DNA of 44,008 nucleotides, taken from positions 1 to 44,008 of the forward strand of contig ONWR01000013.1 in NCBI GenBank assembly GCA_900321605.1, in the 5' to 3' direction. The notes under the pieces were generated by a model that did not search any database, was not told where the DNA came from, and saw nothing but the letters and a program-made list of their open reading frames with translations. Position numbers and translations under genes: made by a program. Positions 2,491 to 42,447 of this stretch are shown here, piece by piece (position 1 is the stretch's first letter; each line of letters opens with the position of its first letter). The stretch is from an uncultured Bacteroidales bacterium. Lineage in GTDB: Bacteria > Bacteroidota > Bacteroidia > Bacteroidales > Paludibacteraceae.

Positions 2491-2992
2491 CGCGCTCATT
2501 GTGAATATCGATGGTCATGGAGACATTCCCGAAGGCGGAATGGAGATCACCGTGACCGATGCGGAACTGGACATCCTCAGCGGTAAGATGCAAATGAAAC
2601 TGCAAGGCTCGCTGCTCTGCACCGCTCCTCTGACCGTACAGATCACCCGCTCAGCAACGGGACTTGAGGACGAGTTCTGCTGCGCTGGTAACTGCCTTTC
2701 CGGCAACGGAGAGACCGCTCAAACACTGAACTATTCGCCGGAAGGCATTGCCTCTTGGTTTGTGCATTATTCGCCGGTCGCTGATTCCGACGAGACCATG
2801 ACCTATGTCTTCACCGACGCCTCTGAGAGCCGTACACTCACCGTGCATTTTCAATACACCGCTGAGGGAATGGACGATGGACAATGGACAAAGGACAATG
2901 GACAATGGACAAAAGTGCTGCGGGACGGGCAACTCTATTTGATGCACAAAGGACAGATGTACGATGTACAAGGAAAAGAAATCAATAAATAA
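2438..2992 (+). CDS. Small secreted protein of unknown function
   Basis: 184 residues when started at the ATG at 2438, which gives a clean signal peptide (M-K-R-N-W-M-V-A-A-L-L-L-L-F-V-N-A). The longer upstream frame overlaps the lipoprotein gene and is not plausible. The body is beta-rich with two Cys pairs (F-C-C-A-G-N-C). The end, reading R-D-G-Q-L-Y-L-M-H-K-G-Q-M-Y-D-V-Q-G-K, is the style of C-terminal tail common on secreted Bacteroidales proteins, possibly a degenerate sorting tail for type IX secretion. Six copies of the heptamer TGGACAA (2871-2912) are translated just before this tail as a Q-W-T-K-rich insertion. No function recognised. Confidence 0.65.
   Translation: MKRNWMVAALLLLFVNANALIVNIDGHGDIPEGGMEITVTDAELDILSGKMQMKLQGSLLCTAPLTVQITRSATGLEDEFCCAGNCLSGNGETAQTLNYSPEGIASWFVHYSPVADSDETMTYVFTDASESRTLTVHFQYTAEGMDDGQWTKDNGQWTKVLRDGQLYLMHKGQMYDVQGKEINK
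2871..2912 (+). repeat. Six tandem heptamers (TGGACAA) inside a CDS
   Basis: Units read TGGACGA, TGGACAA, TGGACAA, AGGACAA, TGGACAA, TGGACAA with no gap. The total of 42 nt keeps the reading frame and adds 14 residues. The same word occurs at 19079 in the barrel gene on the other strand. Confidence 0.9.
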
Positions 2993-3001
2993 CACACCAA
3001 T

Positions 3002-4483
3002 ATGAAAAAGAACTTTATTATTTGGACTTTAGCAGGTCTCGTTCTGAGCCTTGCGTTCACCGCTTGTAAGAAAAACGATCCCAAGCAAGAACCCACACCG
3101 CAAGTAAATCCCGCGGACACTACGCAACCCACTCCGCCGGACACCATTCCGGCTTCGTTCCCCAAGAAACACCTCATCGAGGAGTTCACCGGACAGACAT
3201 GCGGTTATTGTCCGGAGGGCATGAATAGTATCAGCGATTTCACCAAAGGCGAGTCCAACTGGGTACTTATTCTCCACCACTACGGCTACGGAACGGATAA
3301 TTTCTCCGTTGCCGGCAGTCAAATCATTCAGAAGGCATTAAGCGAGAATGGAGCACCGAAAATATGTATCAACCGTGCAAGCACGAATTACGGCAAAGGA
3401 AACGACATCCTTTTCCATCCGGGCTATCTGCCTCAGACGAGCAAGTCGCAGTTTGCGACAGAGACCTATGCCTCTGTGGTCATTGACAACACGTACGATC
3501 CCGCCACACGGCAACTGAACGTGACCGTTTCCGGCGCGTTGTGCAAAGAGGACTACCCTGCTCTCCAACTGACCGTTCTGGTCAAGGAGTCCGGCATGAT
3601 TGACACCCAAGAGGATTATTATTATACCTTCGGCGGATGGGAGCAGTTCCGCCATACGAATGCCGTTCGTCTCTATCTGTCCAACGCCAAAGGAGACGCT
3701 ATTTCCGTGGATTCCACGCGTCATTATACCGCTACCTATACCGCTACCCTCAACGACCAATGGGTTCCCGAGAACTGCATGGTAGTAGCTTTCCTGAGCG
3801 AGGCATTCAAGCCGGTCATCCAAGCGGAGCAACAACCCGTTGTAGCCGGTTCTGCCGGTGGCGCAGACATTACCCATGGCGGCATCAAAGCGGCAGAAGT
3901 GCCGGATTACTACCCCGAGGTGGACGCCACCAGCGGACCGGGCACCTTCTCCGGCAATGAGACAGAAAGTCTGGCAGTTACCAATGCCTTCTACAAAGAC
4001 TTTCCGGAGCAAAACGCCCGTTTTTGGCAGTTACAGACGTACAGCGCAACCATAGTAGCTACCATCGACAAAACCCCATGTGCGCCTTTTGCGGATCTCT
4101 ATGTGATCACGGATATAGGTGTGGACTCTATACCCGCAGGGGATTATCCTCTCAACCTCTCCGAGCAACCCGGCACAGCCTATGCGGGATACCGAGATAA
4201 TGAAAAAATAGAAATGGGCGGAAGCGTATTCTATTTTGTTAGCTATTCTTACCTCGTGGAAGGTTATGTAAACCCCGTTTGCCAGTGGCTGATTGTGAAC
4301 GGTACACTGACCGTTGATAAAGACCGCAAATGGTCATTAACAGGTCGTACACTAAACGGCAGCAGGATTTCGTTAAAAAGCACTTCCGCCATCAAAGTCT
4401 CCGGAGCGGTGAATGCCCCGATGCATAAAGCCAGAAAAGCAGCACTCAAATCCGAAAAATTCAAATTAGAACAAAATTCATAA
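3002..4483 (+). CDS. Omp28-related outer-membrane lipoprotein
   Basis: 493 residues, ATG start 9 nt after the previous gene. A signal peptide ends in a lipobox (A-F-T-A-C, Cys22), then a Pro/Thr-rich tether to about residue 52. A thioredoxin-like segment follows with L-I-E-E-F-T-G-Q-T-C-G-Y-C-P, CxxC at residues 67-70, and a beta-sandwich-like middle. This layout is that of the Omp28 family known from Porphyromonas and Bacteroides as surface lipoproteins. The C-terminal 150 residues (about 320 on) look like an extra domain with a metabolite- or carbohydrate-binding feel, but I do not recognise it. It is the last gene of the four-gene envelope operon. A redox or adhesin role is possible; neither is shown. 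Confidence 0.8.
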   Translation: MKKNFIIWTLAGLVLSLAFTACKKNDPKQEPTPQVNPADTTQPTPPDTIPASFPKKHLIEEFTGQTCGYCPEGMNSISDFTKGESNWVLILHHYGYGTDNFSVAGSQIIQKALSENGAPKICINRASTNYGKGNDILFHPGYLPQTSKSQFATETYASVVIDNTYDPATRQLNVTVSGALCKEDYPALQLTVLVKESGMIDTQEDYYYTFGGWEQFRHTNAVRLYLSNAKGDAISVDSTRHYTATYTATLNDQWVPENCMVVAFLSEAFKPVIQAEQQPVVAGSAGGADITHGGIKAAEVPDYYPEVDATSGPGTFSGNETESLAVTNAFYKDFPEQNARFWQLQTYSATIVATIDKTPCAPFADLYVITDIGVDSIPAGDYPLNLSEQPGTAYAGYRDNEKIEMGGSVFYFVSYSYLVEGYVNPVCQWLIVNGTLTVDKDRKWSLTGRTLNGSRISLKSTSAIKVSGAVNAPMHKARKAALKSEKFKLEQNS

Positions 4484-4518
4484 AGATTCACATTTTTTAT
4501 ATAAAAATATAAAATCTC

Positions 4519-4549
4519 TTGCATATATCAAAAATTATTTGTATCTTTG
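4519..4549 (+). promoter_or_regulatory. Bacteroidota promoter upstream of ppdK
   Basis: TTG at 4519-4521, 20-nt spacer, then TATCTTTG at 4542-4549, fitting the Bacteroidota sigma-ABfr consensus. It is followed by CAGCCG, the same extension seen at the tRNA-Pro and bactofilin promoters. It predicts a leader of about 220 nt before the ppdK start. Confidence 0.8.
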
Positions 4550-4609
4550 CAGCCGAATTGTGCAAGTACCGCTACTTTGCAACGCAATCTGCTCTCTATC
4601 GCATCAAGA

Positions 4610-4653
4610 CCGCAACGAGAGCGCAACGGGAGCGCAACGGGAGCGCAACGAGA
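4610..4653 (+). repeat. Four 11-nt tandem repeats in the ppdK leader
   Basis: Consecutive 11-mers: cCGCAACGAGA, GCGCAACGGGA twice, GCGCAACGAGA. They lie in the transcribed leader between the promoter and the ppdK start. Function unknown; a direct protein- or RNA-binding site array is possible. Confidence 0.8.
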
Positions 4654-7721: not shown

Positions 7722-9035
7722 ATGTTAAAGAAACTATTTGGGTTTGACGCTACGCAACATAGCGTACGTACGGAGATTTACGCAGGTATCACTACCTTTT
7801 TGACCATGGCGTATATTCTGGCTGTGAATCCGGGCATATTCAGTGCCTTGGAGTCGCAGGGAATGCCGAAGGATGCGGTCTATACCGCCACGATTTTAGC
7901 TTCCGTGGTAGGTACTTTGATGATGGCATTCTATGCCAAGAAACCTTTTGGTTTGGCGCCGGGCATGGGAATCAACGCCTTTTTTGTCTTCGGCGTTTGT
8001 TTGGGTATGGGGCATAGTTGGCAGTTTGCGCTGACAGCTGTGTTTATTGAGGGTTTGATTTTTATTTTCCTGTCGCTATTCAAGGTGCGAGAGATAATTG
8101 CTCACGCTATTCCGGCGAGTATCAAAGCGGCTATCGGAGCCGGTATCGGTCTGTTCATCGCTTTTATCGGTTTGCAGAACTGCGGCATTGTGGTAGCCCA
8201 TGAGAACACACTGGTCAGTTTGGCAAAATTCAACACACCATCGGTCATTTTGGCGCTTATCGGCATCTTCATTTGCGGATTGATGGTGGTAAGAAAGATC
8301 CCAGGAGGACTGCTTTGGGGAATCCTTCTGACCGCGGTAATAGGTATTCCGATGGGAGTGACCCACTGGGACAAGATCGTCTCTACTCCACCCTCGATAG
8401 CACCTATATTCATGAAGTTTGAATGGAGTCAGATCTTCTCGTGGGATATGTTGATTGTCGTTTTCACGTTCCTGTTCGTGGATTTCTTCGACACGGTAGG
8501 CACCGTACTTGGTGTTTCGATGAAGGCGAATATGGTGGATAAAGACGGCAAGGTGGATGGTATCGGAAACATGCTGATGGCGGACGCGGTAGCTACCACA
8601 GCGGGTGCTTGTCTGGGTACCTCGACCACGACTACGTATGTGGAGAGTATCGCGGGTATCGCGGTAGGCGGTAGAACGGGATTGACGGCAGTTGTGATAG
8701 CTATTTGTTTTCTGCTATCTTTGTTCTTTGGTCCGTTGTTCCTCGCTATTCCGATGTCTGCGACTGGTCCGGCGTTGGTGATTGTCGGTGTGATGATGGT
8801 TTCCAACACGACTGCAGTAAATTGGGAGGACTTCTCCGAGGCTATTCCTGCTTTTGTTACCCTGCTCATGACTCCGCTGTGTTATAGTATCAGCGATGGA
8901 ATCATGTTGGGTATCATCATGTACGTACTGATGAAACTGACCAAGGGTAAAGAGGGCATTCGTCAGATCAGTCCCGCCGTGTGGGTATTGTTTGTGCTCT
9001 TCGTGATTCGATACGCGCAGCAAGCCCTTAATTAA
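7722..9035 (+). CDS. NCS2-family purine (guanine/hypoxanthine/adenine) permease
   Basis: 437 residues, an inner-membrane transporter with about 12-14 hydrophobic segments. It starts M-L-K-K-L-F-G-F-D with the family's typical E-I-Y-A-G-I-T-T-F-L-T-M-A-Y-I-L early helix, and has the substrate-site signature A-P-G-M-G-I-N-A-F-F near residue 88 and the F-D-T-V-G-T segment near 260 that mark the AzgA/PbuG/GhxP branch. Members import nucleobases with protons. The exact base cannot be told. It has its own promoter and is followed 20 nt later by the dehydrogenase gene, so the two may be co-transcribed. Confidence 0.92.
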   Translation: MLKKLFGFDATQHSVRTEIYAGITTFLTMAYILAVNPGIFSALESQGMPKDAVYTATILASVVGTLMMAFYAKKPFGLAPGMGINAFFVFGVCLGMGHSWQFALTAVFIEGLIFIFLSLFKVREIIAHAIPASIKAAIGAGIGLFIAFIGLQNCGIVVAHENTLVSLAKFNTPSVILALIGIFICGLMVVRKIPGGLLWGILLTAVIGIPMGVTHWDKIVSTPPSIAPIFMKFEWSQIFSWDMLIVVFTFLFVDFFDTVGTVLGVSMKANMVDKDGKVDGIGNMLMADAVATTAGACLGTSTTTTYVESIAGIAVGGRTGLTAVVIAICFLLSLFFGPLFLAIPMSATGPALVIVGVMMVSNTTAVNWEDFSEAIPAFVTLLMTPLCYSISDGIMLGIIMYVLMKLTKGKEGIRQISPAVWVLFVLFVIRYAQQALN

Positions 9036-9055
9036 GGTGAAAGGTGAAAGGGAAA
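9035..9055 (+). repeat. Three heptamers flush against a start codon
   Basis: AGGTGAA, AGGTGAA, AGGGAAA run from the last base of the permease stop codon to the base before the ATG of the dehydrogenase gene. The array decides for the ATG at 9056 rather than the in-frame GTG at 9044. Confidence 0.75.
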
Positions 9056-11977
9056 ATGGAAATACTAACTGATAGTTTGCATAAGATAGCGTACGCGACG
9101 GATGCGAGCGTGTACCGCGAGATCCCGTACGGGGTAGCTTACCCGAAGGACGAGGAGGAGATCGTGACGTTAATAGGGGAAGCCCGCTGTCGCCACACGA
9201 ACCTCATCGCTCGTGCAGGCGGTACATCCATCGCCGGACAGGTCGTTGGCAACGGTATCGTAGCGGACATCAGTAAGCATATGAACCGGATCCTTGAGAT
9301 CAACGCTGAGGAACGGTACGCTTGGGTTGAACCCGGTGTGGTACGCGACGAGCTGAACATCGCCTGCAAGCCGTACGGTCTGTTTTTCAGTCCTGAGACC
9401 TCCACTTCGAACCGATGCTGCATCGGCGGTATGGTGGGCAATAACTCCTGTGGAACGCACTCCTTAATATACGGAAGCACGCGCCCGCACGTATTAGAAG
9501 CCGATGGCATCCTTGCTGATGGCAGCAAGGTGCATTTCCAAAAATACACCCTCGCGGAACTCGAAGAGCGGTTCGGTAAAGCGTTTTGGGAAGATGTACA
9601 AGGAACAAAGAGTTTGGAAGAACGTATCTACGCACAGTTGATCCGTTGGGCAAAAGACGAGAAGACGCGGCAGCTCATCGAAGATACTTATCCGGACAAA
9701 GAGCTCACACGCCGCAGCTGCGGATATGCTATTGACGAGACGATAGAAGATATTATCCAAGATGGTTCTATCAACCTCTGCAAGCTGATAGCCGGAAGCG
9801 AAGGCACACTCGCTTTTCTGACACGGATCAAGGTGTCGTTAGACCCCCTGCCGCCGAAAGAAGTGATGGTCGTTTGTGCGCATTGCGTGAGTATAGATGC
9901 GGCTTTTGAAGCGAATCTGACCGCCTTGGCGCAACACCCGACGGCTATCGAACTGATGGACGGAGAGATATTGGAACTCAGCAAACAGACCCCTTCCGTA
10001 GAGCGGTTCTTCGTACAAGGCGACCCTGCGGCTCTCCTGATAGCCGAACTACGAAGCGAGACACGCGAGGACTTAGACCGGCAAGCCGAAGCGATGGAGA
10101 AAGCGCTGTCAGACACCGGTCTCGTCACCCTCTGCACACGAGTCTATGGAAGCGAAGTAGCCAAGGTGTGGAACCTGCGCAAAGCCGGTCTCGGTATCTT
10201 AAGCCGCATGAAAGGCGATGCCAAACCGACCGGCGTGATCGAAGACACCGCCGTAGCACCCTCTCGTATGCCTGCTTACATGCGGGATTTTAGGGAAATG
10301 CTACAGCGACTCGGTACCTCCTGCGTCTTCTACGGACATATCAGTACGGGCGAGCTTCACCTGCGTCCGATTTTAAACCTCAAGACCAAGGAAGGCAAAC
10401 AGCTCTTCCGAACAATCGCACACGAGACGACCCTCCTTGTGCGCAAACACCGAGGCACCATCAGCGGCGAACACGGAGACGGAAGGTTACGAGGCGAGTT
10501 CATCCCCTTGCAGTACGGCGAAGAGACCTACGAACTGATGCGGCAGGTCAAATACTGCTGGGACCAAGATAATATCTTTAATCCCCATAAGATCGTTGAC
10601 ACGCCTAAGATGGACGAGTACCTGCGTGCCGACCGTTCAAAGACCGGCGATGAGCTGCTCTGCCGTGTGGAGCAATGCAACGGTGCCGGAGACTGCCGCA
10701 AGTCGCAAGTCATAGGCGGTACGATGTGTCCGACCTACAAAGCGAGCCGCGATGAGTTGCAGACCACCAGAGCAAGAGCGAATGTGTTGAGGGAGTTCTT
10801 GACCAAGAGCCAAGGACAGAGGACGAAGGACGAAATACAACAAGTAAAAGAGGTGTTGCTCTCTTGTCTTGCCTGCAAAGCCTGCCGGAAAGAGTGCCCT
10901 TCGGGTGTCGACATGACTCGCATGAGAGCGGAAGCCCTGCAACGCATCTACGACGAAGAAGGTACTCCCTTGCGCACATGGATGATAGCAAACAACGCTT
11001 CCGTTCAACGATTAGGCTCTTTGGTACCGCATATATACAATTTCTTTGCATCGAACAAACTCACCTCTACCCTCCTCAAAAAGATAGTGGGCTTTGCTCC
11101 GGAACGCCATATACCCTTAATCCATCATACATCCTTACATCATACATCCTTCTTACATCATACATCCTTACATCATACATCCTTCTTACATCATACATCC
11201 TTCCATCATACATTCAAAATCTATCTTTTTCTCGATGAGTTCACGCGGTACAATGAACCAAGCTTGGTTCAGACGTTCATCGAGCTGATGAACCGTTTGG
11301 GCTACGAGGTGATCATCCCGAGACATACGGAGAGCGGTAGAGCCGCTATCTCCAAAGGGTGCCTGCGTCAAGCTAAACACCTTGCGGAGAAGAACATCCG
11401 TTTACTCAAAGACCTGATTACTGAAGAGACGCCGCTTGTCGGTATCGAGCCTTCGTGTATCCTCACCTTCCGGGACGAATATCCGGACATCGTGAGCGAC
11501 GGTTATCGTGAGGAGGCAAAGCGATTAGGACAAAACTGCCTGCTCTTCGATGAGTTTCTGATGCGGGAAGTGGAAGCCGGAAGAATACGTAAAGAGGCAT
11601 TCTCCAACATGAAAGCGGAGATTTGGCTTCATGGGCATTGCCATCAGAAAGCCTTGGTAGGAGTAGAGAAAACCGCTGCCTTGCTCAACCTGCCGGAGAA
11701 CACCACAGTGCATGTGATTCCTTCGGGTTGCTGCGGTATGGCAGGTTCGTTCGGATATGAGAAAGCGCACTACAAGACCTCCCTTGCTATCGGCGAGATG
11801 ATCCTTTTCCCTGCCGTTCGCGAAGCTGTCAAAGCCCACACAATCGATCATCCGGTCTTCATTGCTGCTCCGGGTGTCTCGTGCCGCACGCAGATACTGG
11901 ACGGTACCGGCATACAAGCTTATCATCCCATTGAGATCCTGTACAAAATGCTGAACGACTCACACGTACTGCAATAA
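9056..11977 (+). CDS. FAD-linked oxidase / 4Fe-4S / CCG fusion dehydrogenase (D-lactate or D-2-hydroxy acid type)
   Basis: 973 residues from the ATG at 9056. Domains in order: FAD-binding PCMH domain (R-A-G-G-T-S-I-A-G-Q near 50, G-G-M-V-G-N-N-S-C-G-T-H near 125); FAD-oxidase C-terminal domain to about 510; a ferredoxin-like region with C-N-G-A-G-D-C-R, G-G-T-M-C-P and C-L-A-C-K-A-C-R-K-E-C-P (530-615); and a C-terminal cysteine-rich CCG region with G-I-E-P-S-C and P-S-G-C-C-G-M-A-G. This GlcD+GlcF-like layout is that of the YdiJ/Dld-like oxidases of D-lactate or D-2-hydroxyglutarate; substrate not determinable. Two repeat-derived insertions lie between the clusters and the CCG part: three heptamers at 10812 and the His-rich stretch at 11123-11215. 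The 3' end overlaps the convergent HAD gene by 18 nt. Confidence 0.9.
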   Translation: MEILTDSLHKIAYATDASVYREIPYGVAYPKDEEEIVTLIGEARCRHTNLIARAGGTSIAGQVVGNGIVADISKHMNRILEINAEERYAWVEPGVVRDELNIACKPYGLFFSPETSTSNRCCIGGMVGNNSCGTHSLIYGSTRPHVLEADGILADGSKVHFQKYTLAELEERFGKAFWEDVQGTKSLEERIYAQLIRWAKDEKTRQLIEDTYPDKELTRRSCGYAIDETIEDIIQDGSINLCKLIAGSEGTLAFLTRIKVSLDPLPPKEVMVVCAHCVSIDAAFEANLTALAQHPTAIELMDGEILELSKQTPSVERFFVQGDPAALLIAELRSETREDLDRQAEAMEKALSDTGLVTLCTRVYGSEVAKVWNLRKAGLGILSRMKGDAKPTGVIEDTAVAPSRMPAYMRDFREMLQRLGTSCVFYGHISTGELHLRPILNLKTKEGKQLFRTIAHETTLLVRKHRGTISGEHGDGRLRGEFIPLQYGEETYELMRQVKYCWDQDNIFNPHKIVDTPKMDEYLRADRSKTGDELLCRVEQCNGAGDCRKSQVIGGTMCPTYKASRDELQTTRARANVLREFLTKSQGQRTKDEIQQVKEVLLSCLACKACRKECPSGVDMTRMRAEALQRIYDEEGTPLRTWMIANNASVQRLGSLVPHIYNFFASNKLTSTLLKKIVGFAPERHIPLIHHTSLHHTSFLHHTSLHHTSFLHHTSFHHTFKIYLFLDEFTRYNEPSLVQTFIELMNRLGYEVIIPRHTESGRAAISKGCLRQAKHLAEKNIRLLKDLITEETPLVGIEPSCILTFRDEYPDIVSDGYREEAKRLGQNCLLFDEFLMREVEAGRIRKEAFSNMKAEIWLHGHCHQKALVGVEKTAALLNLPENTTVHVIPSGCCGMAGSFGYEKAHYKTSLAIGEMILFPAVREAVKAHTIDHPVFIAAPGVSCRTQILDGTGIQAYHPIEILYKMLNDSHVLQ
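10812..10832 (+). repeat. Three heptamers (AAGGACR) inside the dehydrogenase CDS
   Basis: AAGGACA, GAGGACG, AAGGACG add exactly 21 nt (seven residues) in a hydrophilic loop before the second Fe-S motif. A related word occurs at 22491. Confidence 0.7.
11123..11215 (+). repeat. CATCATA/CATCCTT heptamer-pair array inside the dehydrogenase CDS
   Basis: Six CATCATA words, the first five each paired with CATCCTT, are joined by 1-nt (A or C) or 4-nt (CTTA) spacers, giving periods of 15 or 18 nt, both multiples of three. It encodes a His-His-Thr-Ser-Leu/Phe-rich insertion of about 30 residues between the Fe-S region and the CCG domain. Confidence 0.92.
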
Positions 11978-12685
11978 CTCAGGCAGGGAGGTGATGACGA
12001 TGAGGTTAGAACGGGACAGATCCTCCGGCAAAGCGTCCCCACGGCGGGAGAAAAAGACAGTTGCTAAACCCGCATTCTGTGCACCGATGATGTCCGTGGT
12101 CATTGAGTCTCCGATCATCAGCACTTCCGAAGGCTTGAGTTGACACCGACGCAATGCCTCTTCATAGAAACGAACATCGGGTTTGTCATAGCCAATATCC
12201 ATCGATATATACGTGTCTTCAAAGAAATGCAGGATACCTGCTTGCTCCAAACGGCTGCGCTGCAGGTGACCGAAGCTGTTCGATGCCGCAAAAAGCCGAT
12301 AGCCCTTTTGCTGCAAAGCTTCGAGCGTCTCTACGGCATACGGCACAAGGGTGTGCGTCAGACCCCATGCGGCTCGAAAAGCCTGTTTGAAAGGCTCTAC
12401 AGCTTGAGGCGGATAACCCGCTTTCTCGCAGAACTCCGCCGGATAGAGTTCCATCACTTCAGCTATCGTGTGCAAACCATGTTTGGCTTCCGAGAACAAT
12501 CTGCCGCTGATTTCGAAGAAAAGGGAGAAGAGCTCGTCTCTGGTGTACGGTGTAGAGTGTACGGTGTATGGTGTATGGTGGACGGTGGACAAAACATCCA
12601 TCGCAGCCTCGAAAGCTTCCCTACAACAGGGGATATAATCGAGCAAAGTGTCGTCTATATCTATAAAAATCGCTTTATATTGCAT
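11960..12685 (-). CDS. HAD-superfamily phosphatase, YjjG-type noncanonical nucleotidase
   Basis: 241 residues from the ATG at 12685; eight further upstream residues are possible but M-Q-Y-K-A-I-F-I-D fits the family start. HAD motif I is D-I-D-D-T-L-L-D, motif II is A-A-S-N-S near residue 130, the lysine lies in Y-D-K-P-D, and motif IV is M-I-G-D-S-M-T-T-D. The helical cap lies between motifs I and II. The family hydrolyses nucleoside monophosphates or other small phosphates in the cytoplasm (YjjG/YfnB-like). The cap carries a T-V-H-H-T-P-Y-T-V-H insertion made by seven heptamers (12544-12592). The 3' end overlaps the converging dehydrogenase gene by 18 nt. Confidence 0.85.
   Translation of the reverse strand: MQYKAIFIDIDDTLLDYIPCCREAFEAAMDVLSTVHHTPYTVHSTPYTRDELFSLFFEISGRLFSEAKHGLHTIAEVMELYPAEFCEKAGYPPQAVEPFKQAFRAAWGLTHTLVPYAVETLEALQQKGYRLFAASNSFGHLQRSRLEQAGILHFFEDTYISMDIGYDKPDVRFYEEALRRCQLKPSEVLMIGDSMTTDIIGAQNAGLATVFFSRRGDALPEDLSRSNLIVITSLPELLQYV
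12544..12592 (-). repeat. Seven heptamers (TGTAYGG on the plus strand) inside the HAD CDS
   Basis: Plus-strand units: TGTACGG, TGTAGAG, TGTACGG, TGTATGG, TGTATGG, TGGACGG, TGGACAA. Translated on the minus strand they give a His/Thr/Tyr/Pro-rich loop in the cap domain. The last unit is identical to the word at 2871. Confidence 0.9.
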
Positions 12686-15377: not shown

Positions 15378-16213
15378 GCCGATTGCCGTTGAGCGTGTTG
15401 TACTGGTTCGCGGACTACCTGATCTATCCGGTGATGTATCATCTGATGCGTTACCGCCGGAAGTTAGTAGCCAAGAACCTGCGTAACTCGTTTCCGGACA
15501 AGAGCGAAGCGGAGCGCAAAACCATCGAGAAGGCGTTCTACCATCAGTTCTGCTCCACCATCGTGGAGACGATCTACGGCTACCGTTGCTCTGAAGAACA
15601 GATGCGCCAACATGTGACTTTTAAGAACATGGACGAGGCCAACCGTCTCGTTCACGAAAAGGGAGGATGCATCTTCATGTTAGCGCATATGGGCAACTGG
15701 GAATGGTTAGCCGAGGTGCAACATAGTTTGGACGAGGGTATCACGGAAGTGAATGTCTATCGTCAGCTCAAGAACCCAAAGATGGACGCGTTGATGTTGG
15801 CTATCCGAGCCCAACGAGGTGGTACATGCGTAGAGAAGAGACGCATCTTACGAGAGATGGTTCGTTTCCGCGCAGAGAAAAAGAAAGTGACCATCGGTCT
15901 GATCTGCGACCAGAAACCTCGTCCCGAAGTGACCCGTACGTGGGTTGAGTTTCTGCATCAAGACACCGGTTTCTTGGACGGCGGCGAAGTTTTGGGTACG
16001 AAGTTCGGTTATCCGGTATTCTATGCTTATGTTCGCAGGCCAAAAAGAGGATGCTATGAAGCGGAACTGCAACTCCTGACAGCCGACCCCAAGAGCTGCG
16101 CAGAAGGAGAGATCACCAAAGCCTATGCACAGGCTTTGGAACGCAATATATTGGAGCAACCGGAGTTGTGGCTATGGACTCACAACCGGTGGAAATGGAA
16201 AAGGGACATTTGA
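15350..16213 (+). CDS. LpxL/HtrB-type lysophospholipid (lipid A) acyltransferase
   Basis: 287 residues from the ATG at 15350; an in-frame TTG at 15341 is less likely. The N-terminal hydrophobic segment (L-P-L-S-V-L-Y-W-F-A-D) is followed by R-R-K-L-V-A-K-N-L-R-N-S-F-P, typical of the family, and the catalytic HX4E-type motif is H-M-G-N-W-E-W near residue 113. It likely adds a secondary acyl chain to lipid A at the inner face of the membrane. The last codons and the stop are formed by the heptamer GACATTT array that runs into the next start. The cdsA/acyltransferase/glycosyltransferase order recurs in this phylum (recalled, not checked). Confidence 0.88.
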   Translation: MLLSCTSFLSRLPLSVLYWFADYLIYPVMYHLMRYRRKLVAKNLRNSFPDKSEAERKTIEKAFYHQFCSTIVETIYGYRCSEEQMRQHVTFKNMDEANRLVHEKGGCIFMLAHMGNWEWLAEVQHSLDEGITEVNVYRQLKNPKMDALMLAIRAQRGGTCVEKRRILREMVRFRAEKKKVTIGLICDQKPRPEVTRTWVEFLHQDTGFLDGGEVLGTKFGYPVFYAYVRRPKRGCYEAELQLLTADPKSCAEGEITKAYAQALERNILEQPELWLWTHNRWKWKRDI

Positions 16214-16239
16214 CATTTGAGATTTGAGATTTGACATTT
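16205..16239 (+). repeat. Five heptamers spanning a stop codon and ending at the next ATG
   Basis: GACATTT, GACATTT, GAGATTT, GAGATTT, GACATTT fill exactly the space from the third-last codon of the acyltransferase to the base before the ATG of the glycosyltransferase. The stop TGA (16211-16213) is made by the junction of two units. Confidence 0.95.
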
Positions 16240-20492: not shown

Positions 20493-20563
20493 CAGCCGAT
20501 TTTATGTGCCTATGCGTATGTATGCGCATAACACGCATATAATAAGAAGAATATAAGCAAAAC

Positions 20564-24589: not shown

Positions 24590-24682
24590 TTAAAAATGAA
24601 TAATTAACAATGAATATTTTTCCGATGACGCACCTATTCGCTCCGCGAGATATTCATTATTCATTAATCATTATTCATTGAT
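24588..24682 (+). repeat. Inverted heptamer arms around a GC-rich core
   Basis: Left AATTAAA, AATGAAT, AATTAAC, AATGAAT (24588-24615) starts within the porE stop. Right ATTCATT, ATTCATT, AATCATT, ATTCATT (24652-24679) is the reverse complement of the left word and ends 3 nt before the thyA ATG. The core between contains CGCTCCGCGAG. Confidence 0.92.
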
Positions 24683-25477: not shown

Positions 25478-25501
25478 TTTTTAATTTTTAATTCGTAATT
25501 T
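25474..25501 (+). repeat. Four heptamers (TTAATTT) flush against the folA ATG
   Basis: TTAATTT, TTAATTT, TTAATTC, GTAATTT fill the whole thyA-folA gap, starting within the last codons of thyA and ending at the base before ATG. Confidence 0.93.
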
Positions 25502-28052: not shown

Positions 28053-28189
28053 CGATTTGACGATTGACGAGGTACGATTGATTGACGATTGATTATAATT
28101 GACGATTGTCAGCCACGTAAATCGTAAATTACCGCAAAGCGGCAAATCGTCAATAAATCGTAAATGGTAAATGAATAAATCGTAAATCA
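28051..28189 (+). repeat. Large GACGATT/GTAAATC element between tex and ettA
   Basis: Left side has GACGATT words (28051, 28059, 28084, 28101) plus variants; right side has AATCGTA-type words (the reverse complement sense) reaching the ettA ATG. GACGATTTG (28051-28059) and CAAATCGTC (28143-28151) are perfect reverse complements, and ACCGCAAAGCGG (28131-28142) is a small hairpin. Could act as terminator or attenuator. Confidence 0.85.
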
Positions 28190-29863
28190 ATGGACGATAA
28201 GAAGATTATTTTTTCGATGGTGGGGCTGAATAAGAGTTTCGGTCCGCAAAAACAGGTATTGAAGAACATCTACCTGAGTTTCTTTTATGGCGCCAAGATC
28301 GGTATCATCGGTCTGAACGGTGCCGGTAAATCGACCTTGCTCAAGATCATCGCCGGTATTGAAAAAGAGTACCAAGGCGAGGTCGTTTGGTCTCCCGGCT
28401 ACTCGGTCGGCTATCTGGAGCAAGACCCGAAGCTCGATCCGAACAAGACCGTGCGCGAGGTTGTTCAGGAAGGTGTGCAACCGATCATGGACATGCTCAA
28501 AGAGTACGACGAGATCAACATGGCGTTTGGTGAACCCGATGCCGATTTCGATAAGCTCTTGGCTCGTCAAGCGGAGTTGCAGGACAAGCTGGATGCCGCT
28601 GACGCATGGAACATCGACCAGAAACTTGACCGCGCGATGGACGCTCTTCGCTGTCCGCCCGATGAGGCGAGTGTCACTACCCTCTCCGGAGGTGAACGCC
28701 GCCGTGTAGCCCTCTGTCGTCTGTTGCTCCAACAGCCGGATGTGCTGCTCTTGGATGAGCCGACGAACCACTTGGATGCCGAGTCCATCGATTGGTTAGA
28801 GCAACACCTGCAGCAATATGCCGGAACGGTCATCTGTATCACGCACGACCGTTATTTCCTTGATAATGTGGCAGGTTGGATTCTCGAACTGGATCGTGGA
28901 GAAGGTATTCCTTGGAAAGGCAACTACTCGTCTTGGCTCGAGCAGAAGACGAACCGTATGGCGCAGGAGGAGAAACAGGCTTCCAAACGTCGCAAGACCT
29001 TGGAGCGCGAGTTGGAATGGATCCGTATGGCGCCTAAAGCACGTCACGCGAAGCAGAAAGCCCGTTTGGACGCATACGACCGAATGCTCAACGAGGAGCA
29101 GAAAGAGCGTGAGGAACGCTTGGAGATCTTCATCCCGAACGGTCCGCGTCTGGGAAATAAAGTCATCAACGCCGAAGGCGTAGCCAAGTCGTTTGGTGAC
29201 AAGTTGCTCTTCGAAGACCTCAACTTCACGTTGCCGCCGAACGGTATCGTGGGTGTCATCGGTCCGAACGGAGCCGGTAAGACGACACTCTTCCGCATGA
29301 TCATCGGTTCCGAGAAAGCCGACAAAGGAACGTTCTCGGTCGGTGAGACCGTGAAGATCGGTTATGTCGATCAGCAGCATACGGATATAGACCCCAATAA
29401 ATCCGTTTTTGAGACCATCAGCGGCGGCACGGAGTTCATCCGTGTGGGCGGCAAGGAGATCAACGCTCGTGCGTACCTGAGCCGTTTCAACTTCACCGGC
29501 GCAGACCAAGAGAAGAAATGCGGCGTCCTCTCCGGTGGTGAACGCAACAGGCTCCATCTGGCGCTGACACTCAAATCAGAAGCGAACGTGCTTTTGCTCG
29601 ATGAGCCGACCAACGATATTGATGTCAACACCTTGCGTGCCTTGGAGGAAGGATTAGAGAACTTCGCCGGTTGTGCGGTGGTCATCTCCCACGACCGTTG
29701 GTTCCTCGATCGTATATGCACGCATATACTCGCATACGAAGGAGACGGTAAAGTGTTCTGGTTCGAAGGCAGTTATTCCGAGTACGAGCAGAACAAGAAG
29801 ATGCGTCTGGGCGAAGAAGCGTGCGAACCGAAACGTGTTCGGTACCGCGGCTTAACGGATTAA
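28190..29863 (+). CDS. ettA: EttA-type ABC-F ATPase (translational throttle)
   Basis: 557 residues, close to the 555 of E. coli EttA. Two soluble ABC domains without membrane segments: Walker A G-L-N-G-A-G-K-S-T and G-P-N-G-A-G-K-T-T, signatures L-S-G-G-E-R-R-R and L-S-G-G-E-R-N-R, Walker B L-L-L-D-E-P-T-N-H and L-L-L-D-E-P-T-N-D. The linker carries the arm and the K/R-rich P-site-tRNA-interacting region (about 240-310). It binds the ribosome E site and gates elongation by energy state. Confidence 0.95.
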   Translation: MDDKKIIFSMVGLNKSFGPQKQVLKNIYLSFFYGAKIGIIGLNGAGKSTLLKIIAGIEKEYQGEVVWSPGYSVGYLEQDPKLDPNKTVREVVQEGVQPIMDMLKEYDEINMAFGEPDADFDKLLARQAELQDKLDAADAWNIDQKLDRAMDALRCPPDEASVTTLSGGERRRVALCRLLLQQPDVLLLDEPTNHLDAESIDWLEQHLQQYAGTVICITHDRYFLDNVAGWILELDRGEGIPWKGNYSSWLEQKTNRMAQEEKQASKRRKTLERELEWIRMAPKARHAKQKARLDAYDRMLNEEQKEREERLEIFIPNGPRLGNKVINAEGVAKSFGDKLLFEDLNFTLPPNGIVGVIGPNGAGKTTLFRMIIGSEKADKGTFSVGETVKIGYVDQQHTDIDPNKSVFETISGGTEFIRVGGKEINARAYLSRFNFTGADQEKKCGVLSGGERNRLHLALTLKSEANVLLLDEPTNDIDVNTLRALEEGLENFAGCAVVISHDRWFLDRICTHILAYEGDGKVFWFEGSYSEYEQNKKMRLGEEACEPKRVRYRGLTD

Positions 29864-31676: not shown

Positions 31677-32371
31677 GATTTCCGCTGTTGCACTCTTTCT
31701 CGGCGAAGTTCTTCAACGAGAAATTTGCAACACAAAAAATAGATGCGGAGTACTCGTTGTACCCGATGAAGGAGTTAACGAGTGAACGAATGAACGAGTT
31801 GCTGGACACCTTGAGCGGCATGAATGTCACGATGCCGTACAAGCAGGCAATCATCCCGTTTCTGGATCGTTTGGACGAAACGGCAGAAGCTGTCGGAGCG
31901 GTCAATGTGGTGCATAAACGCATCGGCTACAACACCGACTGCATCGGGTTCATGGACTCTATCCGTCCGCTCTTGAACGCCGATGACCGCAAAGCCTTGG
32001 TTCTCGGAACAGGCGGTGCCTCGAAAGCCGTTTGCTTCGGTTTGCGCAAATTAGGCGTCTCCCCGACCCTCGTCAGCCGTACGCCGAAAGCAGGCATGTT
32101 ATCGTACGACCAACTGACCGAAGAGCATCTGAGCGAATACACTGTGATCGTCAACTGTACGCCATTAGGCATGACGCCGGAGGAAGACACTTTCCCGCCT
32201 ATACCGTACGAGTATATTTCGGCACGACAATTGTTGTTCGACTGCGTGTACAACCCCGAAGAGACCCTTTTCCTCAAGAAAGGCAAAGCGCAAGGCGCAC
32301 GCACCCGAAACGGCATGGAGATGCTCTACGGACAAGCCAAAGCAGCGTGGAAAATTTGGAATAATGAATAA
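31655..32371 (+). CDS. aroE: Shikimate dehydrogenase
   Basis: 238 residues, slightly short for the family. It reduces 3-dehydroshikimate with NADPH in aromatic amino-acid synthesis. Motifs: G-I-I-G-F-P-L-L-H-S-F-S at the start, N-V-T-M-P-Y-K near 55 (Lys catalytic), N-T-D-C-I-G-F near 86, nucleotide-binding G-T-G-G-A-S-K-A near 112, and G-M-E-M-L-Y-G-Q-A near 224. Octamers GTTAACGA, GTGAACGA, ATGAACGA at 31774-31797 lie in frame. The last residues N-N-E and the stop are formed by AATAATG repeats. Confidence 0.95.
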   Translation: MRHFGIIGFPLLHSFSAKFFNEKFATQKIDAEYSLYPMKELTSERMNELLDTLSGMNVTMPYKQAIIPFLDRLDETAEAVGAVNVVHKRIGYNTDCIGFMDSIRPLLNADDRKALVLGTGGASKAVCFGLRKLGVSPTLVSRTPKAGMLSYDQLTEEHLSEYTVIVNCTPLGMTPEEDTFPPIPYEYISARQLLFDCVYNPEETLFLKKGKAQGARTRNGMEMLYGQAKAAWKIWNNE

Positions 32372-32401
32372 TGAATAATGAATAATTAATATTTCAGAGA
32401 T
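32360..32401 (+). repeat. AATAATG heptamers running through the aroE stop to the next ATG
   Basis: AATAATG three times, AATAATT, AATATTT and CAGAGAT end at the base before the DUF4831 ATG. The aroE stop (32369-32371) is inside the array. Confidence 0.92.
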
Positions 32402-33472
32402 ATGAAAAAGATCTTTTTGATGCTCATTGGAGCAATGACGATTTGCGCAGTACGTGCGCAAGTGGTAGAACAAGGCGAACCCGCTTTGGTGTATTACAGT
32501 CCGAAGACCTCTCTCGTGCTGGAGTTTAAATACACGGTAGAGACCGAGAAACCCGGTATCTTTGCGGCTTACGCGGAGTCGATGATCGGCGCTAAGAACG
32601 CCATAAAGGAAACCAAAACGACGTACACGCTCAAAGATGCGTTGGTTCGTACCTCGACCCGGACCGACTACGCCCGTCCTCACAAAGTGACCGCAGAAGC
32701 CGGTTTCCCCTTACTGCTCACCATCAGCGAGAAAGGCTTGCTCAAAGGCTATAACCTGCCTCGCGAGGAGAAAGAGAACATCTATTCGTCCAACAAAAAG
32801 GACGAGACACCTTGCGCCAAAAACGCCCTCAAAGCAGTGCCGTTCCCCGAAGAAGTGCTCAAAGCATCTACTCCTTCCGCACAAGCCGCAGCAGCTGCTA
32901 AGCAGATCTTCCACATCCGCGAGACACGTATGTACCTCCTCAACGGCGAAGTGGAGCACGCGCCGGCAGACGGCGAGGCGATGCGTCTTGTCTTGGAGGA
33001 GTTGAACAAACAAGAGAAAGCGCTTACTGATCTCTTCCTCGGCAAGAGAAGCAAACGCTTCGAAAGCAAACGCGTCCGTTTGACTCCCGAAATGGCGGCT
33101 CAAGCCAACACCAAAACGCAGAAGAGCGTCTATTATTTCTCGGAGGAGAACGGATTTACGGACGCAGAGAACATCGATGCAGACACCATCGGCGTGACGA
33201 TGGTTCTGAATCGGGCTATCTTGGCCGAACCTGCCGAGAACGGCAAGAAGAGCAAGAAACATGCTCCGCAGCTTTCGCAACTGACATATAATCTGCCGGG
33301 TAACGCTTGCATCCAAGTGAACTACAAAAACCGTTCGCTGACCGAGCGTACCGTGCCTGTAGCTCAATTAGGAGCCGACGTGCCTCTCTCTAAAGACCTC
33401 TTCTCCGGCAACGACCTGCCCGTCATCGTCTTCAGCGAGAAAACCGGAAACATTGTGTCCATTAGCAAGTAA
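32402..33472 (+). CDS. DUF4831-like secreted protein
   Basis: 356 residues with signal peptide ending A-V-R-A-Q. The body shows V-Y-Y-S-P-K-T-S-L-V-L-E-F-K-Y-T-V-E-T-E-K-P-G near the N-terminus and ends L-P-V-I-V-F-S-E-K-T-G-N-I-V-S-I, which I associate with the Bacteroidales DUF4831 family; no activity is known. It stands between aroE and porD and is probably periplasmic or surface-associated. Confidence 0.75.
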   Translation: MKKIFLMLIGAMTICAVRAQVVEQGEPALVYYSPKTSLVLEFKYTVETEKPGIFAAYAESMIGAKNAIKETKTTYTLKDALVRTSTRTDYARPHKVTAEAGFPLLLTISEKGLLKGYNLPREEKENIYSSNKKDETPCAKNALKAVPFPEEVLKASTPSAQAAAAAKQIFHIRETRMYLLNGEVEHAPADGEAMRLVLEELNKQEKALTDLFLGKRSKRFESKRVRLTPEMAAQANTKTQKSVYYFSEENGFTDAENIDADTIGVTMVLNRAILAEPAENGKKSKKHAPQLSQLTYNLPGNACIQVNYKNRSLTERTVPVAQLGADVPLSKDLFSGNDLPVIVFSEKTGNIVSISK

Positions 33473-33481
33473 TGGACATTG

Positions 33482-33592
33482 GAAATTTGAGATTTGAGAT
33501 TTGAAAATTCGCTCTGCGTAAAAATCGTGCCCCTTAGGGCTAAGAATAATCGTTCGAGCGAAGCGAGATAAGAAATTTGAAATTTGACAAAC
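33482..33592 (+). repeat. GAGATTT/GAAATTT arms around a hairpin-rich core before porD
   Basis: Left GAAATTT, GAGATTT, GAGATTT, GAAAATT (33482-33509); right GAAATTT, GAAATTT, GACAAAC (33572-33592) ends exactly before the GTG start. The core has GCCCCTTAGGGC (33529-33540) and CGTTCGAGCGAAGCG. Confidence 0.88.
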
Positions 33593-41297: not shown

Positions 41298-41333
41298 GCA
41301 TTCTGATTGCTCCTGTTTCATTCTCATTTCATT

Positions 41334-41365: not shown

Positions 41366-41370
41366 ATGTC

Positions 41371-41378
41371 TAACTTTG
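41371..41378 (+). promoter_or_regulatory. Possible -7 promoter element for the HNH gene
   Basis: TAACTTTG fits TAnnTTTG and lies 65 nt before the start, just after a terminator. No TTG is present at the usual upstream distance, so it is weak. A CACCTC-GCGTT-GAGGTG hairpin (41399-41415) lies in the presumed leader. Confidence 0.4.
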
Positions 41379-41442
41379 CATCGCTTTTCGGTCCAAGACA
41401 CCTCGCGTTGAGGTGCTCTCAATCCCTCCGAGAAGCGAGCAA

Positions 41443-41994
41443 ATGAAAACAGATTCTTTATTATTGATCCATCCTGCGGAAGTGGAGCTTGAGGATGGAA
41501 CGGCAGTGAGATTAGTGCAGCCTATAGAGCGCACAGGCAACAGACCTCTGTATGTGTCTGCCGACGGACGGGCGTTCTCGCATATCCGGGTACGCGACAA
41601 AAAGACAGGCGAACCCTGCTGGATCTTTCGGAAGCAAGTGCCTATCTTTGACACCTCGCCCGTTAACCGGTTTAATGGTCACCGCAAACAACGCTACTAC
41701 AAGATGAGTAATTTCGGGAACATCTTTCTCTCGCATGCCGTAGCGCTGGCGTGGTTAAGTCCGCAACCGGTAGATGAAAAAGGAAACAACTTTGAGTGCC
41801 ACCATCTCAACGGCATTGTGGTGGATAACCGAGCCACAAACCTGATTTGGTTGTCCCGCCAAGAGCATCGCCTTTTCAACACGGTGCAACGCGCACTACG
41901 CATGGCTGGGCGAGACCTCACGAAAATGTCCCGAGAAGAAATCATCTCCACCACACACAAGTACACATTAACTAACCTTCAAAACATTGACTAA
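41443..41994 (+). CDS. HNH-type endonuclease-like protein
   Basis: 183 residues from the ATG at 41443; an upstream in-frame GTG falls inside a hairpin. The C-terminal half has F-E-C-H-H-L-N-G-I-V-V-D-N-R-A-T-N-L-I-W-L-S-R-Q-E-H near residues 118-142, which is the His-His...Asn...His pattern of HNH homing-type nucleases of phages and mobile elements. The N-terminal part (Y-V-S-A-D-G-R-A-F-S) resembles the NUMOD4-like lead-in seen before such domains. It may be a free-standing mobile or phage nuclease; cleavage is not shown. Followed 2 nt later by the next gene. Confidence 0.75.
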   Translation: MKTDSLLLIHPAEVELEDGTAVRLVQPIERTGNRPLYVSADGRAFSHIRVRDKKTGEPCWIFRKQVPIFDTSPVNRFNGHRKQRYYKMSNFGNIFLSHAVALAWLSPQPVDEKGNNFECHHLNGIVVDNRATNLIWLSRQEHRLFNTVQRALRMAGRDLTKMSREEIISTTHKYTLTNLQNID

Positions 41995-41996
41995 TC

Positions 41997-42383
41997 ATGA
42001 AATATTCCCATTTATCCGAATTGCGCGAACTGCGCATCCAAGAGAAAGCCATTAAGGCACGTATTGACGAAATCAGCGGTAAGGCTACAGAAGAAGCGGT
42101 AGCTATCCTTGCGGCAAAGGGTCTGGAGAAAGGTGAGTTTGAAGTGGAAGGTGTTGGTAAGTTCCAGCTTCAACGGACAGAGTCCTTCGACTTCTCAGAT
42201 TACCGCCGTTACCCGCAGGAACAGGCGGTCAAATGGCGCGAGAACGCAAAAGAAAAGACCAAAGAGCAGAACCTCGTCAAAGCGCGTACGGCGGTCATGA
42301 ACGGCTATGTCAAGACCTTTGTGGAACTCTACCCCGACAAAGAGCCGGACGAGATCAAGCTGACGGTGAAATTCATAGAATAG
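41997..42383 (+). CDS. Hypothetical small protein (phage/island type)
   Basis: 128 residues, charged and mostly helical (E-L-R-I-Q-E-K-A-I-K-A-R-I-D-E-I near the start), with a possible C-terminal sheet (I-K-L-T-V-K-F-I-E). Two nucleotides after the HNH gene, so co-translated. I do not recognise it; the size and composition recall accessory genes of phages, but this is only an impression. Confidence 0.6.
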   Translation: MKYSHLSELRELRIQEKAIKARIDEISGKATEEAVAILAAKGLEKGEFEVEGVGKFQLQRTESFDFSDYRRYPQEQAVKWRENAKEKTKEQNLVKARTAVMNGYVKTFVELYPDKEPDEIKLTVKFIE

Positions 42384-42447
42384 ACCGCTGCGCTAAAAGA
42401 GTAAAGACCGCTCGTTGCACTCGCTAAAAGAGTAAAGACAAAACACC
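42384..42447 (+). repeat. GACCGCTGCGCT core with AAAGAGT/AAAGACA heptamers
   Basis: GACCGCTGCGCTA, AAAGAGT, AAAGACC, then GCTCGTTGCACTCGCTA, AAAGAGT, AAAGACA, AAACACC. Two core copies in tandem; fourth locus of this dispersed family in the window. Confidence 0.88.

Follow-up and report, generated by a model that had tools for sequence, protein, structure and literature searches.

The DNA examined here (the window) is positions 1 to 44,008 of contig ONWR01000013.1, from the genome of a gut bacterium (the source genome, GCA_900321605.1). It contains many short arrays of tandem 7-nt words, and the words differ from place to place. How did so many different words come to be arrayed with one period? 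An earlier note on this DNA argued that such arrays are not ordinary slippage of one sequence and suggested a copying or expansion process with a 7-nt step. We suggest, with a probability of roughly 0.6, that these arrays are members of a pool of short repeat cassettes found across the genome and exchanged by recombination, extended by slippage, and perhaps driven by genes of the S23/IVP family (PF05635). The pool is made up mostly of tandem 7-nt words, with some 8- or 11-nt arrays or palindromes.

We found that period 7 is in excess. For each lag we counted the stretches in which 17 or more of 21 positions matched. The 44-kb window had 15 at lag 7, 3 at lag 8, and none at lags 6 and 9; the lag-7 mean in 20 second-order Markov controls was 0.0. 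Another 400 kb of the source genome had 83 at lag 7, 26 at lag 8, 19 at lag 11, 11 at lag 9, and 3 at lag 6, and one Markov-3 control gave 0 at lag 7. Since the controls stayed at zero, the excess is beyond chance. The earlier note's expectation that period 7 would lead periods 6, 8, and 9 against controls is thus borne out, and the contrary outcome, no excess, did not appear. Genome-wide, tandem 7-nt units exceed other unit lengths, as in heptanucleotide STRR/LSSR repeats, and period 7 was foremost in all groups examined, including loci of Bacteroides and Parabacteroides. Among 178 genomes of the same genus (the comparison set), one 7-nt skeleton had 7172 matches, a figure that counts overlapping units of one word family, and its 6-nt version had 12. 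The load of skeleton matches ranged from none to hundreds per genome.

Most of the individual arrays could be confirmed. Of the 27 places claimed to hold 7-nt arrays, 21 had a period-7 row in TRF (minimum score 30). The other six had period 14 (24588 and 20564), a 15/33-nt repeat (11123), or no period-7 row (22491, 19058, and 42396); the place at 42396 is a member of a GACCGCT..CGCTAAAAG family. Two of the three claimed 8-nt arrays are present (20311 and 31774), but the third (29866) shows up as a weak row of 2.4 copies at 29891. The array at 2871 is also real, but rough gene calls place it between genes rather than in one, where the earlier note had it. The claimed sharing of words between distant places held for those checked (GTTGAGA, AATTAAA, GGACAAT, and ATTTGAG).

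The arrays lie between genes, over gene edges, and within genes (coordinates of arrays, slots, and the DUF1015 gene are on the plus strand). GACAATG (2866..2915) is in a gap by the gene calls, AAGGTGA (9034..9062) spans the stop codon of a permease gene, and CATTTGA/GATTTGA (16201..16243) covers the end of one gene and the start of the next. TTTAATT (25473..25506) precedes a start codon, AATAATG (32353..32398) spans a stop codon, and ATTTGAG is at 33471..33510. Arrays inside genes include GGTGTAC in a minus-strand gene (12542..12590, gene calls), AAGGAGA in a glycosyltransferase gene (16507..16541), and ACGAATT (26185..26215) and GAGTTGA (27077..27106) in tex. The slot between the bactofilin gene (PF04519, 20632-21003) and the DUF1015 gene (21141..22469) holds an AATTAAC array, a core of ~80 nt, and an inverted array (21004..21140). 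A similar element (24588..24681) has AATAATG arms around a GAATATTTT...GCGAGATA core, and a composite of ATTGACG and TAAATCG arrays carries the dispersed skeleton ACGATTGACGAGGTACGATTG (28048..28191). The DUF1015 gene itself has three multi-allelic loop sites, with arrays of GAGTTGA (site 1, 21426..21460), AATTAAA (site 2, 21871..21908), and AATTAAA type (site 3, 22042..22073). At site 1 the second unit is changed to AGAGTGG where the frame would hit TGA, and at site 2 TAA is avoided by a third unit, AATGAAA. Selection in such coding slots would maintain the frame and purge stop codons.

Dispersed arrays in one genome have word families in common. The 98 arrays of the source genome fall into 46 word classes, and 567 pairs of arrays are within one mismatch of each other, compared to a mean of 208.5 and a maximum of 227 in 10 letter shuffles. 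Words also form genome-specific dialects, which we followed in ten genomes for a single word family: the fraction of same-dialect pairs within genomes was 0.33, versus 0.10 when shuffled (0/2000 shuffles reached the observed value). Composite skeletons reappear at distant loci. Words may move between slots by ectopic copying, in which similar arrays undergo gene conversion or template switching, and such copying would explain both the dialects and the shared skeletons.

At many slots, entire cassettes rather than single units differ among sister species. We aligned 117 kb of a close relative (G128) with the source genome at 95.94% identity and found 30 unalignable gaps, 18 of which had a 7-, 8-, or 11-nt array on at least one side. 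A second pair (G126 and G055, 93.67% identity) had 11 gaps, 7 with such an array. By the criteria used, neither array nor palindrome was present in 7/30 and 3/11 gaps, respectively. At matching slots the filler was often unrelated: a different 7-mer word, an array of 8-mers, or a palindrome. G128 has a different word in the 25473..25506 slot and a palindrome at DUF1015 site 2. Relatives have CAGCCAT, AAGTCGA, or palindromic inserts at the tex 27077 site, and other species have unrelated fillers in the bactofilin/DUF1015 slot. Compared to a mobile element of the MITE type, slots were seen occupied, differently filled, or shorter. Arrays at orthologous slots are therefore often not identical, and the alternative named in the earlier note, identity everywhere, was not found. 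At a few sites the only difference is in copy number, of roughly one or two units (+7 nt at L015 11534, +13 at L019 7531, and +8 at L019 12824). The proposed 7-nt step alone is insufficient, given the many whole-filler swaps that include 8-nt arrays and palindromes.

Could each array simply have grown in place? A polymerase prone to 7-nt misalignment could extend local sequence independently at each locus, with point mutation varying the units. The lead of period 7 in every group and some differences of about one or two units between sisters are in its favour, and some words do extend the local flank, for example GAGGTTACGGGTTACGG and GATGTGGAATGTG at DUF1015 site 3. However, the sharing of words between loci far exceeds that in letter shuffles, dialects are specific to genomes, composite skeletons recur at distant loci, palindromes replace arrays, and one 48-nt cassette is identical in two strongly diverged copies of a gene (below). 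We consider slippage in place unlikely, and as the sole cause it is disfavoured. Within the cassette pool, new units would still arise through slippage with its known 7-nt preference. The earlier claim of something beyond slippage of one sequence is supported to this extent: the 7-nt preference is genome-wide and involves many words.

The DUF1015 gene indicates how cassettes arrive. Between the source genome and G126, 0 of 75 compared positions differ in the two bins holding the site-2 cassette, compared to 4-5/60 beside it and 7 to 26/60 in most other bins; the identical cassette is 48 nt long and lies within a strongly diverged gene. Short imported tracts would leave just such an identical cassette in otherwise diverged copies. 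The comparison with G128 is the reverse: the cassette bins differ at 26/45 and 17/30 positions and the adjoining bins at 6-8/60, versus 0-5/60 in most bins elsewhere (one far bin has 8). For site 3, another pair (G021 and G151) has mostly 0-1/60 differences, and 6-7/60 adjoining the site. We conclude that at sites 2 and 3 cassettes arrived with flank tracts of ~200-300 bp, as recombination would bring. For site 1 the adjoining bins include part of the site and are of little help.

These linked flank differences indicate homologous exchange, and they argue against short-patch replacement within a genome, in which tens of bases would be copied via microhomology, without homologous flanks, by template switching or illegitimate recombination. 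Short-patch double illegitimate recombination is known in Acinetobacter, where RecJ suppresses such events; RecJ is present in the source genome, which also speaks against it. On the other side, words are shared across dispersed loci, and the tex 26185 site has equal length in other species, several of them without an array. Divergence pooled over the flanks of all replaced sites did not rise towards the sites: for G128 all distance bins gave 3.1-4.4%, and for G126/G055 a trendless 5.5-8.1%. Because the pooled divergence is flat, recombination tracts are evident at individual sites only. Taken together, short-patch replacement seems rather improbable to us as the general explanation.

The arrays favor particular positions: recurrent slots are the strips that adjoin start or stop codons and the codons of permissive protein loops. 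By rough gene calls on the source genome, the 98 arrays are 43 intergenic, 37 coding, and 18 at gene edges, versus 13.0, 82.8, and 2.2 expected from random placement. Like STRR/LSSR repeats, they are thus mainly non-coding (43 intergenic plus 18 edge). A gene end is within 15 nt in 40 of the 57 non-coding arrays that have called genes on both sides. Between same-strand genes, 29 arrays are purine-rich on the sense strand, 11 pyrimidine-rich, and 7 balanced. Both the proximity to start and stop codons and the purine bias would suit binding sites for a translation or RNA regulator, as proposed for TAACTGA repeats of Beggiatoaceae (PMC4679880). However, a single-motif binder could not read 46 word classes in 98 arrays that are replaced wholesale at the same genes in sisters and lie within genes in 37 of 98 cases, and we regard this reading as very improbable. 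Hardly credible, too, is a metagenome assembly artefact, in which false joins from short repeats and mixed strains mimic filler swaps: the source assembly (64 contigs, bin 95% complete) and those of relatives (tens to hundreds of contigs, partial completeness; the named close relatives mostly titled MAG or uncultured) are fragmented, but flanking gene order and reading frames are preserved on both sides of swapped slots, and the same heptamer word swapping between isolates B. stercorirosoris DSM 26884 and B. oleiciplenus YIT 12058 (91-94% identical) largely refutes it. A chimera could still underlie individual instances in which two bins share a cassette.

How does the cassette pool compare with known systems? 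Rickettsia RPE are palindromic elements in frame inside proteins, and small dispersed repeats of Nostoc are tied to heptamer arrays; the likeness to our arrays (short in-frame protein repeats, a tie to heptamers) is one of description only. Heptamer bias in bacteria is already known. Heptanucleotide simple sequence repeats (STRR) occur notably in cyanobacteria (Mrazek 2007 and Mazel 1990, via PMC4679880 and PMC4692102), and a polymerase preference for 7-nt misalignment was proposed by Mrazek 2007, as reported in the same two papers. Heptamer repeats have been noted in bacteria for decades, and polymerase slippage is the sole mechanism offered in the literature consulted. Our arrays resemble STRR in that heptamers lead among long repeat units and come as several words; they differ in the 46 word classes among 98 arrays, the dialects, in-gene loop slots, filler swaps between sisters, and palindrome exchanges.

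The earlier note knew of no equivalent in Bacteroidales. That has to be qualified: TAACTGA direct repeats near start codons also occur in five Bacteroidetes (MacGregor 2015, PMC4679880), though as one word. By the same report, the intergenic regions concerned also contain repeats of other heptamers in two of the five, while heptamers related to TAACTGA seldom or never form repeats in the genome mainly studied there. Direct heptamer repeats near starts are alike in both systems, but TAACTGA in two tandem copies (TAACTGATAACTGA) is absent from either strand of 444 kb of the source genome. GGGAATC in Xanthomonas and GGGGA(T/C)T in Nostoc vary extensively in length and sequence at the same genes in close species (PMC4692102), as our arrays do; there, one G-rich word type is found per genome, and swapping for other words is not described in the part of the paper available. 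Borgs, extrachromosomal archaeal elements, have fast-evolving tandem repeats between and within genes, a similar placement, but those repeats are reported to arise independently (PMC9879509). Small variable segments at bacterial backbone sites (Touzain 2010, PMC2884548) are likewise short, variable, and so located, but tandem-word cassettes with dialects are not described in the available part of that paper. We found no report in the literature of swapping, dialects, or an S23 link in Bacteroidales. Conserved proteins can carry exchangeable repeat-built loop inserts.

S23/IVP genes might be what drives the pool. PF05635 matches occur in 149 of the 178 genus genomes at E<=0.001, 141 of them over the Pfam cut-off (S23 counts here take in matches below it). 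The source genome has four, none in the window. Identity was confirmed for single proteins at three loci (L040, L068, and L214). In L040 and L068 the gene lies in the bactofilin/DUF1015 slot, between two protein genes and not in 23S rRNA, and an element of the 24588..24681 type adjoins it; the L132 copy is in a slot between aligned gene regions. Measured against 100 control genes, all from the source genome, inverted arms exceeded the 95th percentile at 15 of 27 S23/IVP loci; 12 were not above it. All four genes of the source genome have inverted arms, and one has a stronger direct match. Ten S23-free genomes had 1 array in 258,225 bases, versus 229 in 1,336,278 bases of 40 others. An underpowered tree-aware test with only 5 well-supported pairs gave 3.1 agreeing, 0 opposing, and 1.9 undecided (median p 0.25).

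Exceptions exist. G019 and G103 have no PF05635 match and yet 67 and 41 skeleton matches, and B. stercorirosoris lacks such a match but has 4 arrays in a 21-kb locus. In G041 there are 9-10 PF05635 matches, 1 array in 60 kb sampled, and 90 skeleton matches genome-wide. In only 12/23 cases (p = 0.14) were words flanking S23 genes commoner elsewhere in their own host genome than the mean for other genomes. S23 number correlates with a reversed-pattern control too (0.41), but that control is itself a 7-nt array pattern and thus no clean null. Inverted partners (score at least 14, within 450 bp) are about as frequent as direct ones (10 and 9 of 98 arrays), so inverted arms are not the rule among arrays. 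As for REP/RAYT, the source genome (bin 95% complete) has no match to PF01797 (Y1 transposase) at E<=0.001.

The association makes S23/IVP genes framed by inverted arrays the best candidate for a self-spreading member of the pool, with gene-less elements as derivatives; we consider this step less likely than not. More speculatively, these four-helix-bundle genes might drive selfish elements of a new class, with ends defined by no fixed sequence but by inverted arrays of the copy's own short word, the protein or the arm stem promoting copying or extension of the word elsewhere. Such a driver would account for the rarity of arrays in S23-free genomes as well as for the 7-nt step, the dialects, and the gene-less elements of array, core, and inverted array. 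In Coxiella, a PF05635-type ORF lies in a stem-forming element within 23S rRNA, with tandem GACAGAT heptamers just before the ORF, 2-3 copies by strain (PMC4990558). The ORF, the inverted-repeat frame, and the heptamers are shared with our loci, but ours, where checked, have protein genes on either side, and the words of their inverted arms vary. The S23 family has no known function according to the same paper; a causal link would point to a role for this widespread family. The range of loads across 178 genomes, sister pairs with differing fillers, and a correlated gene family make the origin and spread of heptamer arrays testable. Finally, the 8-nt array GATTTGAA (20311..20412, 12.8 copies) has related sequence at many places in the source genome, and its word is the arm word of one S23/IVP gene (C28:82384).

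We found that the tandem arrays of short words are real and that their main period is 7. An earlier note had described about 25 arrays of differing 7-nt words in the 44-kb window and proposed copying in 7-nt steps as their origin; the description of the arrays was sound, and they extend further than it reported. Of the 27 places listed there as 7-nt arrays, TRF assigned period 7 to 21, period 14 to two, and another period or nothing to four. With at least 17/21 matches required, 15 windows were scored at lag 7, three at lag 8 and none at lags 6 and 9; the lag-7 mean in 20 Markov controls was 0.0. Contig C18, one of 64 in a 2.3-Mb genome (95% complete), makes up the window; we refer to this genome as the study genome. 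A further 400 kb of this genome gave 83 at lag 7, 26 at lag 8, 19 at lag 11, 11 at lag 9 and 3 at lag 6, and one Markov control of that set gave 0 at lag 7. Period 7 exceeds periods 6, 8 and 9 both in the window and in the additional 400 kb.

The close relatives that carry a name are bins of Bacteroidales/Paludibacteraceae, many of them ruminant-derived (RUG in their names presumably denotes rumen genomes). The nearest of the 178 genomes in the genus set is G128 (97% identity over two genes). Array density dropped with distance: close relatives had 71 in 301 kb, the next set 21 in 320 kb and the remaining genomes 30 in 772 kb, and period 7 was foremost in each set. The skeleton (AATTNAN)x3 had 7172 matches in the 178 genomes (overlapping units counted), and its 6-nt version 12.

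The arrays tend to occupy particular positions, which we call slots. Of 98 arrays in 444 kb of the study genome, 43 lay between genes, 37 within coding sequence and 18 over gene edges, compared to 13.0, 82.8 and 2.2 expected from random placement (gene calls were from a simple ORF scorer rather than a full gene finder). Among the 57 non-coding arrays flanked by called genes on either side, 40 were no more than 15 nt from a gene end. Within the genes examined, arrays were found at positions that accept insertions or other changes in relatives. Three of these sites are in the DUF1015 gene (21141-22469); outside the array-rich relatives, most members of this family have fixed short versions of them (15, 45 and 33 nt). 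In the two DUF1015 arrays inspected by eye, one unit is altered (AATGAAA, AGAGTGG) where the frame would otherwise run into a stop. Of the 37 coding arrays, 10 had a consensus word with a sense-strand stop triplet and 18 one with an antisense-strand stop triplet, a difference for which we claim no significance. Among intergenic and edge arrays between same-strand genes in the 444 kb, 29 had a purine-rich sense strand, 11 a pyrimidine-rich one and 7 a balanced one.

We found that the contents of a slot (the cassette) are replaced between relatives. The three DUF1015 sites hold unrelated inserts in different genomes, including arrays of the 7-mers AATTAAA, GAGTTGA, CAGCCAT, GGTGAGC, GGTTACG, AATGTGT and AAATGCA, arrays of the 8-mers GAATATCG or GATCACGA, and palindromes. 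Inserts were likewise unrelated at position 27077 in tex; at 26185 in tex, all 16 listed sequences had a single length, and the array was present in some and absent in others. Across 117 kb aligned between the study genome and G128 (95.94% identity), 18 of the 30 unalignable gaps contained a 7-, 8- or 11-nt array on at least one side, as did 7 of 11 gaps between the relatives G126 and G055 (93.67%). One slot contains GATTTGAA arrays in the study genome and AATTAAA arrays in G128. Because two cultured Bacteroides, 91-94% identical, also have differing words at the same places, replacement is not merely an artefact of binning, and assembly error as the cause of the swaps is weakened.

Divergence around individual sites has the appearance of short imported tracts, a claim we make for DUF1015 sites 2 and 3 only. 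At site 2, the study genome and G126 had 0/75 differences in the two bins holding the cassette, and the surrounding gene was strongly diverged; G128 was close to the study genome except around the cassette, where it resembled G055. In a third close pair (G021 and G151), divergence was raised beside site 3. The bins at site 1 overlap the site itself and decide little. Flank divergence did not rise when all replaced sites were pooled, so the tract claim is confined to single sites; a pooled flank signature of recombination is absent.

Words are shared between loci within a genome. Among the 98 arrays, 567 pairs were within one mismatch, compared to 208.5 in letter shuffles, and composite skeletons such as ATTGACGATTTGACGATTGACGAGGTACGATTG reappear at distant loci. 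Genomes also have their own dialects of the skeleton word: among the matches listed, G068 had mostly AATTGAG, G065 AATTGAC/T and G071 AATTGAA. For 80 places among these matches in ten genomes, the fraction of within-genome pairs with the same dialect was 0.33, compared to 0.10 after shuffling, and none of 2000 shuffles reached 0.33 (overlapping matches and those from G026, G029, G056, G061, G066 and G072 were excluded). Local slippage alone does not predict such dialects. The diversity of words opposes a sequence-specific regulator as the explanation. Loss of RecJ was rejected with a RecJ match in 21/21 genomes searched (20 over the cut-off), and a Y1/RAYT transposase with zero matches in the study genome.

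Our results are most likely to reflect a pool of cassettes in recurrent slots. Slippage, which is known to prefer 7 nt, would lengthen the cassettes; they would also be homogenised within a genome and pass between species. A literature search, mostly without subscription papers, found no account of multi-word heptamer cassettes being swapped in Bacteroidales, or of a general link between heptamers and S23/IVP genes (PF05635).

Some S23/IVP genes are framed by arrays. One four-helix-bundle gene of the S23/IVP type in B. oleiciplenus (PF05635 match) lies between inverted heptamer arrays, and its relative carries other sequence in that slot. An S23 element in Coxiella is reported to have tandem heptamers ahead of its ORF (PMC4990558). 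PF05635 matches were present in 149 of the 178 genomes (141 over the cut-off). We compared flanks at 27 of 30 S23 loci (L231, L233 and L237 lacked a clear ORF at the expected place) to those of 100 control genes, all from the study genome. Inverted flanks exceeded the control 95th percentile at 15/27 loci, and at 9/27 a locus's own flanks matched better than any mismatched pair. All four copies in the study genome exceeded this percentile, one having a still stronger direct match. Inverted pairing as a general anatomy was unsupported, as most arrays have no inverted partner; so was a general enrichment of S23-flank words in the rest of the same genome, across the genomes tested.

The slot before DUF1015 contains a PF05635 gene in G004 (locus L040) and at locus L068, both identified with Pfam; searching L266 and L068 for an S23 motif gave no match. 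The study genome and some others have gene-less elements there, consisting of an array, a core and an inverted array. The core of the window element (24588-24681) is of the same type as those beside the L040 and L068 genes. Three near-identical AATAATG array-core copies lie in different gaps within 5 kb in L068 (8969, 9495 and 13449), which suggests recent local copying.

Array load increased with S23 number. Ten genomes without PF05635 matches had 1 array in 258 kb, and 40 others had 229 in 1336 kb (Spearman 0.51, kinship ignored). S23 counts existed for 61 genomes, of which this sample covered 50, mostly by one stretch of up to 20 kb each; the S23 counts varied slightly between two rounds for a few genomes (G030, G041, G044). 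Over all 178 genomes, median skeleton counts were 2, 10, 18, 30, 39.5 and 70 for S23 numbers of 0, 1, 2, 3-4, 5-6 and at least 7 (Spearman 0.48; 0.37 when restricted to the 71 genomes with completeness of 90% or more; kinship ignored in both). A correlation of 0.41 was also obtained with the reversed pattern, which is an array pattern in its own right. In a tree-based test on 49 of the 50 sampled genomes, five well-supported pairs gave 3.1 in agreement, 0 opposed and 1.9 undecided (median p 0.25). Further loci from 42 genomes had arrays in 2/13 S23-free cases and 15/29 others (Fisher p = 0.041), but at least 5 of these 42 coincide with match places known from the genus listing, so the comparison is not independent support. 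Exceptions occurred in both directions (G019, G103, B. stercorirosoris, and G041 in the stretch sampled). S23 genes could thrive where slots turn over fast, rather than drive the arrays. We regard S23/IVP elements as a testable candidate driver of the cassette pool.

Other sequences were also seen. A second repeat grammar, with units like GACCGCTTCGCTAAAAGAATAAA (~18-24 nt, containing a small palindrome), occurs at 42379-42451 in the window, in sampled stretches L016 (16800), L025 (3996) and L011 (13153-18061), and next to S23/IVP genes, in their flanks. Two tandem copies of a 49-nt unit (43377-43475, 96% matching) are unlike the short-word arrays. The window encodes a Type I restriction enzyme R subunit at 37279-40392 (HSDR_N, EcoR124_C). 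A promoter-like sequence of 35-47 nt (..TTGCGTATGTCAAAAA....TATCTTTGCA) at 20457-20503 recurs at many places in the genome and resembles the usual promoter type of Bacteroidetes. Similar small genes of one family are found at five places in the 444 kb (L026 1074, L010 1975, L027 73, L028 16201 and L013 17488), and those in L026 and L028 have an AATTCAC-type array element shortly downstream.
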